A stretch of 64,000 bases of DNA, taken from NCBI GenBank assembly GCA_031835245.1, contig JAVKOQ010000029.1:248001-312000 (forward strand), given 5' to 3'. This document shows, in pieces, positions 49,952 to 58,671 of this stretch. Source of the DNA: Balamuthia mandrillaris. Taxonomy: Eukaryota; Discosea; Longamoebia; Balamuthiidae. Positions within the stretch are counted from its first letter, which is position 1. Each line of letters opens with the position of its first letter. Below the pieces are notes generated by a model. It searched no databases. It worked only from the letters and a program-made list of their open reading frames with translations, and was not told the origin of the DNA. The translations under genes and the position numbers were made by a program.

Positions 49952-52900
49952 ATGGAAGAAAGCCAAGATGAAAAGAAACCGCTGCTGCAGAGCGAACAAA
50001 TCCCTCCCCTCTTCCCTTCCGCTGCTGCGGAAGAGGCTTCCGCCTCCGCCTCTTCCTCTTCGCTCTCCGCCCAAAGCTCTGCCACCTCAGAGGCCGCTCC
50101 CCTTCTCGGCGACATCGTCCCATCTTCTCATGAAACTGAAACGCACGTATAAATCAAATATCAAGCTAAAAATTATTAACGTTTAAAAACAAAAAAAAAA
50201 AAAAAAAACAAACAGCGAAGCGTTCCAGATCAAGAAAGCGGCCGTGTTGGTCGACTGCGCGGTGGCAGGGAAACCGACCCTCTCGCTCAACAGCCCCATC
50301 GGGCTGAGGGCCTATCTCATCCATAGGAACCTGATGTGGCTGACCTACGTGGTGTGGGCCGTGCTCTGTTTGCTTCCCTTCTTCGAGGAGCCCTCCTGGT
50401 GTGCCTTTTATCCAAACGGAGGGTGCTCTTCTTCTCTCGGTTTGTTTTTTTTCTCATGAGTACTCCTTTTTTTTTTTCATTTTTCATTTTTCATTTCTTT
50501 TTATTTTTATTTTTCTTTTTTTCTTTTTTCCTTTTTTTTCGGTTCTTTATCAATTATTTTTCATATTTATCCTTCTTTTCTCTTATTCTTCTTTTTTATT
50601 ATCTTTCTGTATGTTTTTCTTTATGTTTTGTGCATGCATTATAGCAACTGAAGGAAAGTCATGGGAAGACTCTGGCCTGCCCAAGCTCAAAATTTCTGTG
50701 GCCCTATCCATACGGTTGGCTTGCATGCTCCTTCTGGCCGTTCAGGCCACGCTTTGGGCATTTGTTCTTGGGCGCAAACACTTTTTCAGCATTCGAGGAA
50801 ACCTCTGGCACTTGCTTCAATGCTTGCTCATCTGCTGGGTGACAATCGAGACCATTGTCCTGTTGATCGTGTTGCCGTCTACTCGACACAAGAGCAACAA
50901 AAGCAAGGATGGGTACTTGGTGCTGATCCATTTTTCACCGTTTCTCCTGCCGTTGTTGTTTTCCATTTACTTTGCGCCAGTTCGACGTTCTGTGAAGAAT
51001 ATCGTGGCACTGTTGGTACAGATGAGGGATATGGCTGTGTTGATGTCGTTCTCCATTTTGCTGGCCTCTTGGTTGGGATGGACCTTGTTCAAAGTGATAG
51101 ATGGTAATTTTTCATCATTGTGCTTCGTGAATTTCGTAGTTTTGTTCTTTTGTTGCTCATCCGTTGAGTCATTATTTTGCAGAGGAGCACTTTGGAAGTT
51201 TAGGCGACTCCATGGCACAAATGGTGTACTTATTGTACGCTGGAAACCTGCCAGGAATGCTGGCAACAAGCTTCGAGGCTTATCGAATTTCTGCTTTGTT
51301 CTTTGCAAGTTTCATTGCCTTTGTTAAGCTATTGTTCTTGAGTCTTGCTCTCGCCGTTGTTTATAGTTGCTACTCCTCTCTGATGCGAGCCGATGTCAAC
51401 GTATTTCTGGTATGTTTGTTTACATATTACTCCTTCTCTAATATCTTTCAACAACATTACCAACAAAAGGAACGACGACGAGTTGCCTTGTTAGCGGCGT
51501 ATGATGTGCTGAAAGAACTTACAAAAAGAGAAGACGTCACTCACGAGGAATCTGGAGTGAGTTTCCCCGTTCTTCGTAGATTATTTGTGGAGTTAAACGC
51601 GTATCATCATCTAAGCCACGTTCCGATGGACCAATTGGATTTAGTTTGTAAGTTTTTGGATGCCAACCGCAACAGTCACGTAGGTAAAGACGGCTTCTTA
51701 GAATTATGTTATGTGTTTAACCTTCGTTTCCGTCAAAGAAAAGGTATCTCCTGTTCCTCTTTTCACTCCTTCCTGCTTTCCTTCTAATGAAGCAACAGAT
51801 AAAAAAGAGGCCAGAGGATTGCTAGCAGGTGTTTGGCCTGGCCTTTACCGTGCTAGAGGCATTCGTGTGCTAACTCGAGTGGAACGCAGTCCTTTGTTGG
51901 AATATGTTGTGGATGGTATGGTGTTAATCTCCACTTTATGTTCCGTTATTGAGTCAATTCAATTTCCTCGCCATCGAGGTACTATCCTGCCTTCTTTTTC
52001 TTCTGTCATTGTTTCCTTTCAACCAAGCTCATTCATTTCGCCAAAGTTGAATGGGAGATTGTTCAAATGGTTTTTGTAGGGTTTTATACTTTCGAACTCT
52101 TCCTCAAAATATTCATCCGCGGCTTCGATTGTTTCCACGGTCAGCTCCATCGTTTAGACTTTATCTCCATTCTCTCCATCCTCGTTCTTTACACCATTGT
52201 TGCATCTACATCAGCTTCCCTATATTCCTTTGCTCACTCTTCCCCTGCTCTCTTTGGCCTCCTAATTGTCTTTCGTTCGCTTCGTCTGCTTCGATTATTA
52301 CGACATTTACCCATTCTTCGCGGAGCGACAGAAGCACTGACACGATATCTTCCCATGTTGTTTGTTCTGATGAGCATCTTTCTATTGTTGGGATACTTCT
52401 TCTTTGCAGCTTTGGGCATTCTTCTCTTTGGAGGCAAGGTCTATCCGGAGAATCCTCGTTTGAAAGATACCAACTTTGCCAAAGCGCACCTTTTTTCTCT
52501 CAACTTTAACGACTTTGGGGATGCTCTCTTCGCGTTGATGACTGTTCAGCTGGCAGCAGATGGCACGAGTATTGAAGGATGGGTAGCATCGAGCGGAAGC
52601 GAATGGACTCACATTTACTTCGTTTGCTTTCTCATCGTTTCGGACATGTTGTTGATGAACATTGTTTTAGCGTCGGTGTTGGAAGCATACGAGCATTACA
52701 GTTCTGCCAAAGCGAACGTTCAAAGAAGAATGACGCAATACAAACAGAGAATTGAAGAAAAGAAAGGGGATGGAGGACGTGGAAGGAAGACGAAGATACA
52801 AGAAACTACAGTGGTGGAAGAGAAACCGATGCAAAGAGAATACTATGGAGTGTTTGACTTGGATGCGCTATACAGTCGGAAGATGAAAACGATGAAGAGA

Positions 52901-53212
52901 AGCAAAAAGTTCAAACGTGGAATAGCCAAACCATCTTTGATCCAAAGGAAGAAAAATAAGAAGACCGAAGAAGAAGAGGAAGAACTGAAGACTGAAATTG
53001 TAGAAGAAGAAGAAGAAGAAGAAGAAGAATCGATTGATATTTCCTCTGAGGATGAAATGGAGGCAGCAAATTTGGAAGCACAGAAAAAAGCACTGGAAGA
53101 GATCATAGAAGAAGCTGGGTTGGAGGAAGAGATGAAAGAAAGGTTGATGGAAAGTGTGCAAAGACTTCAACAACTATCGCATAATCCTCAGTCAGAAAAC
53201 GAACATATTTAA
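49952..53212 (+). CDS. Two-pore channel (TPC-like, two 6-TM domains)
   Basis: A multi-exon gene. N-terminus cytosolic, with Glu/Ser-rich PLLQSEQIPPLF and PLLGDI (dileucine-type sorting signals). Two six-helix ion-channel domains follow. Domain I pore: GDSMAQMVYLLYAGNLPGML. Domain II: S4 VFRSLRLLRLLRHLPILRGA with regularly spaced Arg, pore FGDALFALMTVQLAADGT and S6 MLLMNIVLASVLEAYEHY. The linker has an EF-hand-like helix-loop (CKFLDANRNSHVGKDGFLEL). The C-terminus is highly charged. TPCs release Ca2+ or Na+ from endolysosomes or the vacuole. The domain I filter (YAGNLPG) differs from animal TANNPD, and the domain II filter lacks the NNW motif, so ion selectivity cannot be assumed. Confidence 0.85.
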
Positions 53213-53243: not shown

Positions 53244-55677
53244 TTACTTTTCTCTAACAATTCCATCAGCAGCATTAGACTTTAACAAGGTGACTCCAAA
53301 GGAAAGACGTTTTTGGTTGGTGGTCTTAGCTTGAGAAGTAATGAGGGCACGTTCCTTTTCATGGAACAATCGCAAGTACTCCTCTCGCGCACTTCCCTTC
53401 ATCGCCCCTTGAGATTGTTCCGTTGCAGTGAAATGCCGGTGAAGTGCTCTCTTCCAAAAGTTGTCATAATCACGAAGAACGGTTGCGAATAAAATACACA
53501 CCTTTTTTCCCAGTATGTAAGAAACCCAAAGATAGAAGGAAGCGAAAAGCAACAAAAGCAGAAAGGAAGGTCGGAACCTTGGTACAAGAGACCAAAGAAG
53601 AAGCATCCAAAAACTCAAATATGTGACATAGAAGTTCGTCCGGAAGACAAGCAAACAGGTTGGACCAAGCACGCAACCGCCTTGAATGCAGTCGTTTGTG
53701 ATGAATGTAACGCCTCATGTTGTAGTTTGGTATAATTTTTCTTGAAGGCAACTTATTTCCTATTGTTTACAGGAAAACGTTAAAGAAGAAGAAAGAAGAA
53801 AGAAGAAAGTGGAACAAGAAGAAAAGAGAAAACATAGGACAGAGAGGGACTAGACATTCAGGAGGAGAAAACGGACCAGTGAGAGGAGATCTGGAGTGAC
53901 GAGCAAGCCATTGTTCGATAGCTTTTCGTTCGTAAGTATGGCCGTCCATCGCAACTACAGGATCCTCGAAAGGAACTTGCGTCAATGGACAGATAAAGTG
54001 GAAGAGATAACGCTGACGAACGCCCTTTGCTCGTTTTCGGTGCTCCAGTTCTTGTTCCACTTTTCTTTGCACTACCAGCCCTTCTTCCTCCTCATCATCG
54101 ATGTTGTATAAACTGATTCTGTTTTCTTTCGACTGATCCGTCGTCCCTGCATCTGTTTCTTTATCCTTTTCCTTTTCCTTTTCTTTGTCCGAAGAAGAGG
54201 AAGAAGAGGAAGATGAAGAAGCCAATGCTTCCTGCAGTTGAAGAATTTGACTTTGAAGTTGGTTGATGGTGTAGTGTTGTTTTCGAGCCAATGCGGCAGC
54301 TTCGAAAAGCATCGCTTCAAGTATTTGTGGAGTTCTGATTTGTTGCTGTTTTGGTTTGTTGCGAATAAGACTCGCTCTATATTTTAAGAATACAAAAGAG
54401 AAAAAGACGAAGGTTATGAGATTGCAGATATAGAGCAAGAAATTAACGAGAGAGAGAGGAGAGAACCTGCTGCCAAAACGAAGCGTGGAGAGAGTTTCGG
54501 TGACATTGAATGAACTTGGTGAACAATTGATGACAAGTGTCGTTCGTGCGTTTCCTCCTAAGCTGTTAATCGATTGTTTTAATGCGATGAGATGCTGTTA
54601 GAAAGAAGGAGAAGAAGAAGAAGAAGAAGAAGAAGAAGAACAAGAAGAACAAGAAGAATAGGGAGAAGAGAACTAGAAGAAGAAAGGAGAAGGATAATAA
54701 AAACATTTCAGCAACACGCATACCTGTTTTGTAAGAGGCGAGTTAGTTTGCTGTCGCGATAAGGCACATGTTTCTTTCTGGCAACCAAAGCAGAGATAAC
54801 ATTTCCCAAAGCCAACAACGAGGCGTTAATCCGTTTCGCTTCGTCCAAGCGCATTCCTTCAGCCTCTGTTTTGCTAACCTTTTCAGAGCCGGCCAAATCG
54901 ACCAAGTAAAGCTGAGAGGCTTTTGTGGTTTGCTTCTGGATGTTCTGTTTGTTGATGGTCACAAGAAAGATGGCATGCCCTCTTGAGCTTTCTTCGTTAG
55001 AATGTTTTTTCTTAAGTTAAGGAGAAGAAAATGGCGATAACAGAAAAAGAAGGAAAAAGAGAGGGGAAGAGAGGGAGGGGAAAGAAAGAGAAGATGAGGA
55101 TATTCGTTGCAGCAACGACTCTGTTTCTGGCGCCATCCCTCATGACGGAGATGACTTGTTCAGCAGAAAAAACAGGAGTTTCCATTGCCTCGGGTACAAT
55201 CAGCCCTGTTTTATCTCCTCTGATAGTCAAAGAGCGATTTGGGTCTCTGTTTAGGTCTTTTAAAAACAGATGAGTTCAGGACAAAAGAATAAGGAAACAG
55301 AAGAGCGAAGGAAGACGTACTCAAAAGATCTCGGACTTTTTCCATGTATATTTCAAGATAAGAAACAGTGATATCGAAGAGAATGTGTTCGGATGAGATA
55401 GTAGAGATATGGTGGAAGATATCTCCCATTACTCTCGGTATTATGCCCTTCAGACCTTCATCGAAGCCCTGTCGGTGCAGTTCTGCATCCTCGAACCCAG
55501 GTCCTTGCATTGTGTACGTTTTACCTGCTCCTGTTTGGCCGTACGCTATAATGGCAGCACTATAGCCGTTCAACACATCTACGAAAAATAGAGAGAGAGA
55601 GAGAGAGAGTAAGTACAAAAAAAACAAGAGAATGGAGAACGAGAGAAAGAGAGAAGAAACTACGTCGACGAGAGAGC

Positions 55678-55715
<38 letters not shown>

Positions 55716-56631
55716 AAAAAAAAGAGAGGGAACAGAGACTAGAGAAGAAAGAAGACCATCAATCATGGGTTTAGCGGCATAAGTGTAGACTTCCTCTTGT
55801 CCCGAATATTCAGAAAACACTCTATGAAAGTTGAAGCTGTGACTGCTGCTCGTGGCATGTCCCGTCTGTATCACCAAAGAAAGATTGAGTTGAATGAAGA
55901 GACAGGAGGAGGAGGAGGAGGAGGATGAAGAAGAAGAAGAAGAAGAAGAAGAAGAAGAAGAAGAAGAAGAAGAAGAAGAAGGAGAAGGAGAAGAACAAGA
56001 AGCTGAAACAAACTTGAACGGTAACAGTGCGTTGGTTCGGAATCGCAATGCATGGCTCCCCTCCAGCCTCATACTCGTCCTGAGAGTGAGGCCGAAACCT
56101 ACAAACCACCCTTATATTCTCCTCTCCTTCTCCTCCTCCTTCTTCTTCCAAAGAAGAGGAGGAAGAGGCGCCCCCTGCGGCCTCAGCAGGGTTCCATTCC
56201 TCCGAAAAGGGATCAAACAAGTCAAATTCGTCTTCATTCCTCGTTGTCTTCTTCTTCTTCTTCTGCGTAATGCTCTTCTTCTTCGCTCCTCCGGAGGGAG
56301 CGGAGAGCTTTTTTTTGCCTTTGTCACGCAAGTCAGAGAAGCTCTCTCTTCTTTCCCTTCTTTGTTTCTCCTTGTGAGAAGAAGAAGAAGAAGGCGAAGG
56401 AACATCCAGCGCACTGATCGTTCTTCGACGCAGGGTATTCTTGCTTCGTTTCTTTCTGGTGGTGGAGGAAGAAGCAGAACCAGAATTATTGCCGTGATGG
56501 CTCGAAGGACTTTGCCAAGACCGCACGCCAGCAGAAGCGGCGGAGGAAGAGGAGCTCTCGCCGTCGTCTTCGCTCTTCATCTTCTTTCCATCAATTTTTT
56601 TCTGCGAAAACATTCCTATCATTCTTAACAT
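53244..56631 (-). CDS. Kinesin motor fused to U-box and F-box domains
   Basis: Nine exons join in phase (56631-56014, 55865-55757, 55578-55321, 55244-55104, 55003-54724, 54562-54467, 54376-53877, 53759-53578, 53501-53244), about 813 residues. Residues 1-170 are basic and Ser-rich. The kinesin motor (about 175-565) has [15 protein letters not shown], the P-loop [53 protein letters not shown] and [21 protein letters not shown] coiled segment ([14 protein letters not shown]) follows. The U-box spans the splice: [41 protein letters not shown], then [18 protein letters not shown]. Exons 8-9 continue into an F-box ([20 protein letters not shown] then LVSCTK). The end is a short charged tail. U-box would bind an E2; F-box would bind SKP1. 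One intron is AT-AC. Confidence 0.82.
55004..55103 (-). other. AT-AC (U12-type) intron in the kinesin gene
   Basis: On the minus strand the intron starts ATATCCTC, has TCCTTAAC (canonical U12 branch site) 12 nt before its end, and ends AAAAAAC. Joining the flanks gives the conserved switch I block [18 protein letters not shown]; no GT-AG pair restores it. Confidence 0.85.
55590..55711 (-). repeat. (GA)n microsatellites in kinesin intron 2
   Basis: Two GA runs (55590-55608 and 55681-55711), CT on the transcript strand. Confidence 0.9.
55908..55995 (-). repeat. (GAA/GGA)n repeat in kinesin intron 1
   Basis: About 85 bp of trinucleotide purine repeat on the plus strand, pyrimidine on the transcript strand. 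Confidence 0.9.
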
Positions 56632-56699: not shown

Positions 56700-58018
56700 A
56701 TGTTTCGCATTCCACACCAAAACAAGGGAAAAGAAGAGATGGAAGGCAGAGGAAGAGGAGGAGGAGAGGCGTGGTCCCTGGCCGCCTACTTGGGCACGAA
56801 CGTTACCTCGGTGTGCTGGCTCCCACGCTGCGACCATCGCACCAGAACCGCATACCTACTCACTGGCACTTCAGACGAATCGGTACCTCTCTTTTTGTTG
56901 AAGTGTTTTCCTTTCATTTCGTTGTTTTCTGATTTTGTGATCGATAAAAACGAACAGATAAATAAGGTTGGGTTATGGAGTTTTTCGTTGCCGGATTGGG
57001 AAGACGAGGAAGAAGAAACGGGGCCACAACCTCCCTCGCCTCTTGCCGATAACGTCGTCTTTGGTTCTGTTGCTGGCTTGAAGGTTCGACTCTCTCTTCT
57101 CTTCATCGTTCTCTTGTTTTTTCCTCTCTTATTCCTCTTCGTACTCCTTCTCTGTGGCTTCAAGGTGGTGGAACGAGACTCCTCTCTCTTTGCGCTCAGT
57201 GTTACCACTCATGGCAACCTCAATGTCCACAAAGTCTTCTTCGATACGTCTTCCTCACTTTCCAAGGTAACACCACACTTTCAAAAAAAATAAAATACAC
57301 GAAGTTGCTAAAACCCCTTTTTCAAGGAGGACCGGTTAAAACGGACAAGCACGTGGGAACGCCTGCATCGCTCCGCATGCACAGCGTTTGATGTACGAGC
57401 AGAGAGCAACGAGATCGTTACGGCAGGAGAGGATGGAGCATTACACTTTGTGCAACTGGAACAAGCCATCACTAAACCTCATTTGAGCATTGGTTCGCAC
57501 TCTTTTTTTCCCTTTCTTAGTTGTGCTTCTTTCTTGCATATTTTTTCCAATGGCGTTCTCCTATCTTCTTCATTCTCTTTCTTTCTTCTTTCTTCTTTCT
57601 TCCTTCTTCGTTCTTTTTTCATTGTATGATGTACCAGAGAATGCCGATAGCAGCGGTGTATCAAGCGTGCATTTCATATCTTCTCACTCGGTGTTGAGTG
57701 TTGGCAGCACTGGACATCTCAAGCTTTTTGACCTCCGCACCAACAGTAATGCACAGCAAGACTTTACCATGGTGAAAACGATGAAAGAGTGAGTTTATTT
57801 ATCTCCGTATTGTCTTTTGTTGACTTTTTTTGAGCTCACATGTTTGCTGGTGATTACTTTAGTGCGGGAAGCTCAATATTGCAATGCGCTGCAGTGCACC
57901 CGCATCAACCTTCTTTTGTTGTGACAGGCGCTCATGATGGGTCTATCGCCTTCTGGGTACACTCTTTTTCTTTCTTTGCTTGTTCTTTGTTCTCTTTTTC
58001 TCCTTTCCCGTTCTTCTG

Positions 58019-58051
<33 letters not shown>

Positions 58052-58671
58052 TACGCACTTTTCAAATAACCCATTTGTTTTTGTAATAGGACTTGCGTCA
58101 CCCCAAATGGCCTTTTCAGTCGTATGCACAGCACACTGCTGATGGTATTTATCTCGTATTGTCTCTTTCTTTCTTGCTGTCTTTTTAACTAGAGCCTGTA
58201 GTATGGGATATACAGTTTCATGCGGCACACCCAGATAATGTTATTTCCGCTTCTGAAGATGGAACACTGTTACTCTGGTACCTATTTTTTTCGCCTCATT
58301 CTTCTTTGTTTCAACTCACAATTGTTTATTTATTTATTTATTTTGCTCTGTTGTTTTTTCCTTTTCCTCTATTGTCCCTCTTGCCTCCCTTCTCTCCCCT
58401 ATCTCGCGTTCTCTTCTCTTGACTCTTCTGTCTCTTTCTCTCCGATTCTCTCTCGCTCGTATCTCACGCCACATCAACAAAAAGGAACTTCAACCCGAAA
58501 AACGAGATGAGAGGCACATTCACCGCCGACAAAGAGCAACTCCTTCTCCGCAAACTGCTTCGCCAACGGGTTGGCCTGAACAGCCTGGCCGTGCTCCCCG
58601 AAATGAACATGCTGTGTTGTGCCGCCGACAACGAGGCTCTCCTCTTCCTGGGCGAGCTGCTGCCCGAATAA
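56700..58671 (+). CDS. NUP43: Nup43-like WD40 nucleoporin
   Basis: About nine exons. WD40-type blades: NVTSVCWLPRCDHRTRTAYL, SVTTHGNLNVHKVFF, ACTAFDVRAESNEIVTAGED, GHLKLFDLRTNSN, SFVVTGAHDGSIAFWDLRHP and WDIQFHAAHPDNVISASEDG. The last exon encodes LLRQRVGLNSLAVLPEMNML and ADNEALLFLGELLPE, resembling the Nup43 C-terminus. Nup43 is a propeller subunit of the Y (Nup107-160) complex of the nuclear pore. Assignment to Nup43 rather than another WD40 family rests on block order and C-terminus and is moderate. A CT run lies in one intron (58021-58048). Confidence 0.7.

Follow-up and report, generated by a model that had tools for sequence, protein, structure and literature searches.

A nine-exon gene on the minus strand of the window (the whole 64,000-nucleotide stretch of Balamuthia mandrillaris DNA that was analyzed), running from 56631 to 53244, was predicted to encode a single protein of 817 residues, counted from the first ATG of its frame, in which a kinesin motor is followed by a U-box and then by an F-box. 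Since the same domain order was present in three further deposited proteins and the four proteins formed one clade, this combination is, judged by sequence, a conserved kinesin subfamily and not an accident of gene prediction, and it looks like a real motor family that has been overlooked. The best explanation of these data, to which we assign a probability of roughly 60%, is a motor which would carry an E3 module along microtubules. The parts of the gene are listed below.

56014-56631, minus strand: exon 1, basic and Ser-rich low-complexity N-terminus and start of the motor, from the frame's first ATG at 56631
55757-55865, minus strand: exon 2, motor (frame and Pfam)
55321-55578, minus strand: exon 3, motor with the P-loop GQTGAGKT (frame and Pfam)
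55104-55256, minus strand: exon 4, motor (frame and Pfam)
55004-55103, minus strand: intron 4, U12-type AT-AC pattern, ATATCC...TCCTTAAC...AAAAAAC (join scoring and pattern scan)
54724-55003, minus strand: exon 5, motor with switch I (NEESSRGH) and switch II (DLAGSE) (frame and Pfam)
54467-54562, minus strand: exon 6, end of the motor (frame and Pfam)
53877-54376, minus strand: exon 7, neck, Ser-rich charged linker and first half of the U-box in a single open frame (frame and Pfam)
53760-53876, minus strand: intron 7, within the U-box, GT...AG, 117 bases (join scoring)
53578-53759, minus strand: exon 8, second half of the U-box and first part of the F-box in a single open frame (frame and Pfam)
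53577-53502, minus strand: intron 8, splitting the F-box, 76 bases
53244-53501, minus strand: exon 9, remainder of the F-box, then about 65 residues of C-terminal tail and the stop codon (frame and Pfam)

The eight introns measured 64-178 bases; seven were of the GT-AG class and one was AT-AC. A 798 aa protein of this gene, "Kinesin-related protein 3 [Balamuthia mandrillaris]", was present at NCBI (here P0001), with a tail identical to that of the 817-residue model; the searched database assigns it precomputed Kinesin, U-box and F-box families. It differed from our model at intron 4 and in its later start; as in this public model, which begins MKSEDD, translation may in fact start at an inner ATG. 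When the tail region of the whole protein was used as query, P0001 and two U-box proteins having neither kinesin nor F-box were found, while the 191-residue tail by itself gave no protein match at E 0.001 (41 candidates; proteins of 0.55-1.75 times the query length were considered). No second copy of the gene was found in the organism's own genome, where the other matches were short pieces which we take for low-complexity sequence.

Analysis of the joined protein with Pfam placed all three domains above their cut-offs. Kinesin (PF00225) matched residues 178-508 with 360.9 bits (cut-off 29.3, E 7.1e-108) over profile positions 1-326 of 327, and the motor was complete, with P-loop, switch I and switch II motifs intact in frame. 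The U-box matched residues 632-691 (46.2 bits, cut-off 21.4, E 5.2e-12) and F-box-like (PF12937) residues 708-751 (37.2 bits, cut-off 24.3, E 2.5e-9). The motor is connected to the U-box by a neck and a Ser-rich, charged linker, all in one open frame. The linker contains a KEN tripeptide in the Balamuthia protein and in one relative, P0004; it was weighed as a possible degron but discounted, since 5 of 10 compared kinesins have it too. With respect to known structures, the motor was closest to kinesin-1 heavy chains in the PDB (2.6e-100), the best other family being KIF3B (2e-76). A profile built from the tails of all four proteins retrieved U-box structures first, including CHIP (2c2v, 8.5e-9), and F-box structures next, among them FBXW8 (2.8e-7), FBXO31 (2.6e-6) and SKP2 (1fs2, 4.1e-5). 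An AlphaFold model made from the four sequences had a mean pLDDT of 47.1 and was fair over U-box and neck alone, with ten-residue means of 66-89 in the U-box and 36-54 in the F-box; the model was poor, and the F-box fold gains no independent support from it.

The first-pass annotation had proposed that an apparently separate F-box gene is joined in phase to the kinesin gene, and that the exon after ACAATAG supplies the second half of the U-box. Both proposals were borne out. Exon 7 ends ...SPLTG at a GT donor and exon 8 begins at 53759 directly after ACAATAG; the U-box spans this junction, and exon 8 continues in the same frame into the F-box. It had also been proposed that this exon runs on into an F-box; it holds the first part of that domain, the remainder being in exon 9 beyond a 76-base intron that had not been separated. 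All GT-AG joins with donors at 54050-53700 and acceptors at 53850-53600 were enumerated, and the 51 which kept the frame were scored against the three relatives. The intron 7 join came first of the 51 with a score of 626, followed by 564 for the next, compared with 411 (152+129+130) when the intron was retained; as the relatives were used for scoring, this is a test of homology and not of splicing directly. The identical join is used in P0001. Were intron 7 (53876-53760) retained, the frame would stop inside the intron, giving a kinesin with half a U-box and without an F-box.

It is very unlikely that two adjacent genes, a kinesin whose U-box is truncated and an independent F-box gene, have here been wrongly joined. 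The model of exons 7-9 is itself predicted from genome sequence, and F-box matches are abundant in the Balamuthia genome (1114 candidates, with 150 of the 150 scored over the cut-off), so that a nearby F-box would not be rare. Exon 8, however, carries parts of both the U-box and the F-box in one frame, so the F-box does not form a gene of its own, and a chance join is very unlikely because the three relatives keep the same domain order, two of them being named as Trinity transcript ORFs. A separate F-box gene was thus ruled out, the domains being joined both in exon 8 and in the relatives, and the proposal of one polypeptide with motor, U-box and F-box was upheld.

Relatives of the protein were collected by a motor search in which the 8000 best candidates were scored, 7987 of these were significant at 1e-30, and the best 120 of the 7987 were examined. 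Four of the best 120 carried both U-box and F-box families, P0001, P0004, P0006 and P0007 (ranks 1, 2, 4 and 5), while none of the remaining 116 had a U-box or F-box among its precomputed families; given the numbers scored and examined, further members of the family are possible. The three relatives, which were reached through the motor query alone and not through the tail queries, were 48-58% identical over the motor. As confirmed by hmmscan, P0004, P0006 and P0007 each had the three domains in the same order and all over cut-offs, with 39.4-61.1 bits for the U-box and 30.8-41.0 bits for F-box-like. P0006 and P0007 have Trinity names and the label "ORF type:complet", and the frame was uninterrupted in both; they are relatives of the gene, not Balamuthia transcripts. 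P0004 has the source code lgn, which we take to denote an SRA-assembly collection, where the longest contig, at 2289 bases, can accommodate its 651 codons. In P0004 and P0007 the motor match began late, at profile positions 34 and 28 respectively, so the N-termini of both may be incomplete.

The distance from the motor match to the U-box match was 83-165 residues in the Balamuthia protein and the three relatives. Pairwise identity among the four proteins was 51-64% in the motor, 31-52% in the neck, 4-31% in the linker, 35-52% in the U-box, 0-20% in the spacer between U-box and F-box, 22-56% in the F-box core and 12-30% in the C-terminal tail, where a single Leu (L804) was invariant. U-box and F-box core were therefore kept better than the linker. 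In an alternative reading, which we consider improbable, the two folds would be kept only as binding surfaces (cargo adaptors) and would dock and not ligate. It would accommodate P0004, which has Tyr in a U-box helix where the other three have Trp, and P0007, where the F-box core was the weakest (22-27% identity to the others), so that perhaps not all four bind SKP1. It would also fit with the U-box-like domain of IFT172, for which a mainly stabilizing role could not be excluded by the authors (PMC13290226). Against it, the U-box positions C-P, D-P-V, D-G, T-Y, R, I, S-P, T and P-N were identical in all four proteins.

Phylogenetic analysis was based on 135 aligned rows, consisting of matches to the Balamuthia protein together with rows for 15 kinesin loci on 14 Balamuthia contigs; the corrected sequence stood in for P0001, and the Balamuthia locus rows, which merge exon matches, were incomplete (243-420 of 431 columns). 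In the IQ-TREE analysis of 40 of the 135 rows, picked for spread, the four proteins formed one clade (UFBoot 97) with P0032, which has neither U-box nor F-box, as its sister (UFBoot 99). FastTree on all 135 rows recovered the identical clade with 0.897, and with P0032 at 0.993. Support for the order within the clade was 55. The clade with P0032 sat among kinesin-1-like sequences, in a tree that lacked named motors from other families and in which the nodes joining the clade to the rest were weak (53 and 24). Another Balamuthia locus, L056, grouped with P0025 (100), and the pair joined a set that includes the kinesin 3 of the dictyostelid Heterostelium (81 by IQ-TREE, 0.917 by FastTree), which indicates that Balamuthia has a kinesin-1-like motor beside the U-box/F-box kinesin. 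Two adjacent kinesin genes on a further Balamuthia contig (loci L053 and L054 on C24) were mutual sisters (100) near the kinesin-1-like set. Among the other records, P0058, a fungal kinesin from Cladorrhinum, had PF00179, presumably an E2 family, in its precomputed families and could be a gene-model fusion.

Taken by sequence likeness, the protein is probably a kinesin-1-related motor with the motor on its N-terminal side, in which the U-box-F-box module would replace the usual long stalk and tail. Conventional kinesin-1 is defined by a long stalk and an IAK-type inhibitory tail. The Balamuthia protein resembles kinesin-1 heavy chains (the Neurospora-type 1goj, kinesin-1/KIF5 and the dictyostelid kinesin 3) in motor sequence (2.6e-100 to 1goj), in the N-terminal placement of the motor and in a short neck coil pattern. 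The family differs in lacking the long stalk, only the 83-165 residues noted above separating motor and U-box, in its tail of U-box plus F-box, and in forming its own clade. A strict IAK-type motif was present in none of the four members, compared with 5 of 10 kinesins, using a strict pattern that misses variants.

Within the motor, intron 4 (55103-55004, minus strand) looks like a U12-type AT-AC intron that was misread in the NCBI model. The intron (AT-AC; VAATNSNEESSR) begins ATATCC and carries TCCTTAAC twelve bases upstream of its terminal AAC, an arrangement which we take to be the U12 pattern; this pattern occurred once in the window and was seen in 1 of 100 shuffles. Of 17 in-frame GT-AG, GC-AG and AT-AC joins, the AT-AC join scored highest (729), ahead of GC-AG (696) and the best GT-AG (639), and it matched the NR(M/R/T)VA(S/A)T-SN--SSR of the relatives. 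P0001 uses a GT-AG intron in its place and is without the VAATN of the motor, before switch I; its motor scored 346.1 bits with Pfam, versus 360.9 with the AT-AC join. Matches to U12 and U6atac snRNA above the gathering score were found in the Balamuthia genome, at two loci each.

The gene is closely flanked on both sides. Downstream, a convergent neighbor at 51953-53212 (plus strand) belonged to an ion channel gene (PF00520, 1.7e-27) as a portion of it, the two stop codons being 31 bases apart. Upstream, roughly joined ORF pieces of a divergent neighbor at about 56700-58300 (plus strand) matched nucleoporin Nup43 chains (6.9e-16 and 9.1e-16), with the best match to a chain named MGC154553 protein/Nup42 (4e-18); some 70 bases separate its first ATG (56700) from the start of the kinesin, pointing to a promoter common to both. 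Kinesin and U-box families do occur in giant viruses (PMC11915834), yet an origin of this gene by contamination or from a virus is scarcely credible, being already contradicted by the genomic context: eight spliceosomal-type introns interrupt the gene, which is flanked by the ion-channel and Nup43-like genes. In addition, two motor patterns run against IMG/VR matched 46 stretches, with no relative among them.

Candidate partners of the F-box are encoded in the same genome, with 6 Skp1 matches (as three equal-scoring pairs), 35 exon-level cullin matches and the very large F-box set described above. Equal-scoring pairs of loci on separate contigs were also observed for a kinesin (C160/C102) and a U-box (C115/C284), as if two haplotypes had been assembled apart, while the U-box/F-box kinesin was found in one copy.

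Ligase activity, SKP1 binding and motility are all predicted here from the domains. The motor would dimerize via its short neck coil and walk to microtubule plus ends. The U-box would bind a charged E2 and perform ubiquitin transfer, and the F-box would bind SKP1, docking the motor to a SKP1-CUL1 complex as an adaptor or a second ligase. Such docking could provide another site for E2, bring in a substrate adaptor or serve to regulate the motor itself. An E3 ligase would in this way be placed along microtubules and moved on them, acting on cargo or microtubule-bound proteins. As no Pfam domain passed the cut-off after the F-box in the Balamuthia protein or in the three relatives, the protein's own cargo or microtubule-bound proteins would be the likely targets, and motor or cargo could serve as the substrate-binding part beside the F-box.

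The same lack of a domain beyond the F-box would suit a self-limiting motor, in which ubiquitylation by U-box and F-box would be directed mainly at the kinesin itself or at the other chain of the dimer, with turnover setting the amount of motor or the release of cargo. The missing strict IAK motif makes some other control of the motor plausible and also leans this way. U-box ligases usually act on partners too, which speaks against this explanation, and we regard it as rather unlikely.

The module shares with known U-box E3 ligases (CHIP, plant U-box proteins, Prp19) a U-box over the Pfam cut-off and the common core positions, but the predicted U-box is here on a kinesin with an F-box directly after it. 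As with the SKP1-CUL1 F-box subunits FBXO31, FBXW8 and SKP2, there is an F-box-like core over cut-off with profile matches to PDB F-boxes; unlike these it is attached to a motor and a second E3-type domain and has no recognized substrate-binding domain following. To our knowledge, ubiquitin ligases and motors are linked via adaptors. IFT172, on kinesin-2-driven trains, likewise has a U-box-type domain moved by a kinesin, but on a train protein and not on the motor chain, and no F-box is mentioned in the excerpt of PMC13290226.

Plant U-box proteins with a kinesin-associated-protein domain, which is not a motor, are described in PMC5542650. A kinesin survey (PMC2867816) covered 1624 proteins in 105 architectures, and in its main text neither U-box nor F-box occurred. 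Among the matches listed from titles and opening abstracts of the open PubMed Central literature, a scope which leaves most subscription papers and bioRxiv preprints outside, a kinesin with a U-box or F-box was undescribed. The suggestion that the combination is novel has to be qualified, as the joined gene itself was already a single NCBI record under a generic name.

More tentatively, this unnamed conserved subfamily could be a self-propelled ubiquitin ligase with two independent routes, the U-box with direct E2 recruitment and the F-box through SKP1-CUL1, by which ubiquitylation might be delivered or graded along the microtubule network. Motor, U-box and F-box can be knocked out separately within one gene. 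If the reading of a motor bearing its own ligase is correct, an E3-type module in the motor's own chain would allow ubiquitylation to be positioned in space directly, and the family would be a natural system for testing whether a ligase can reach its substrates by microtubule transport.
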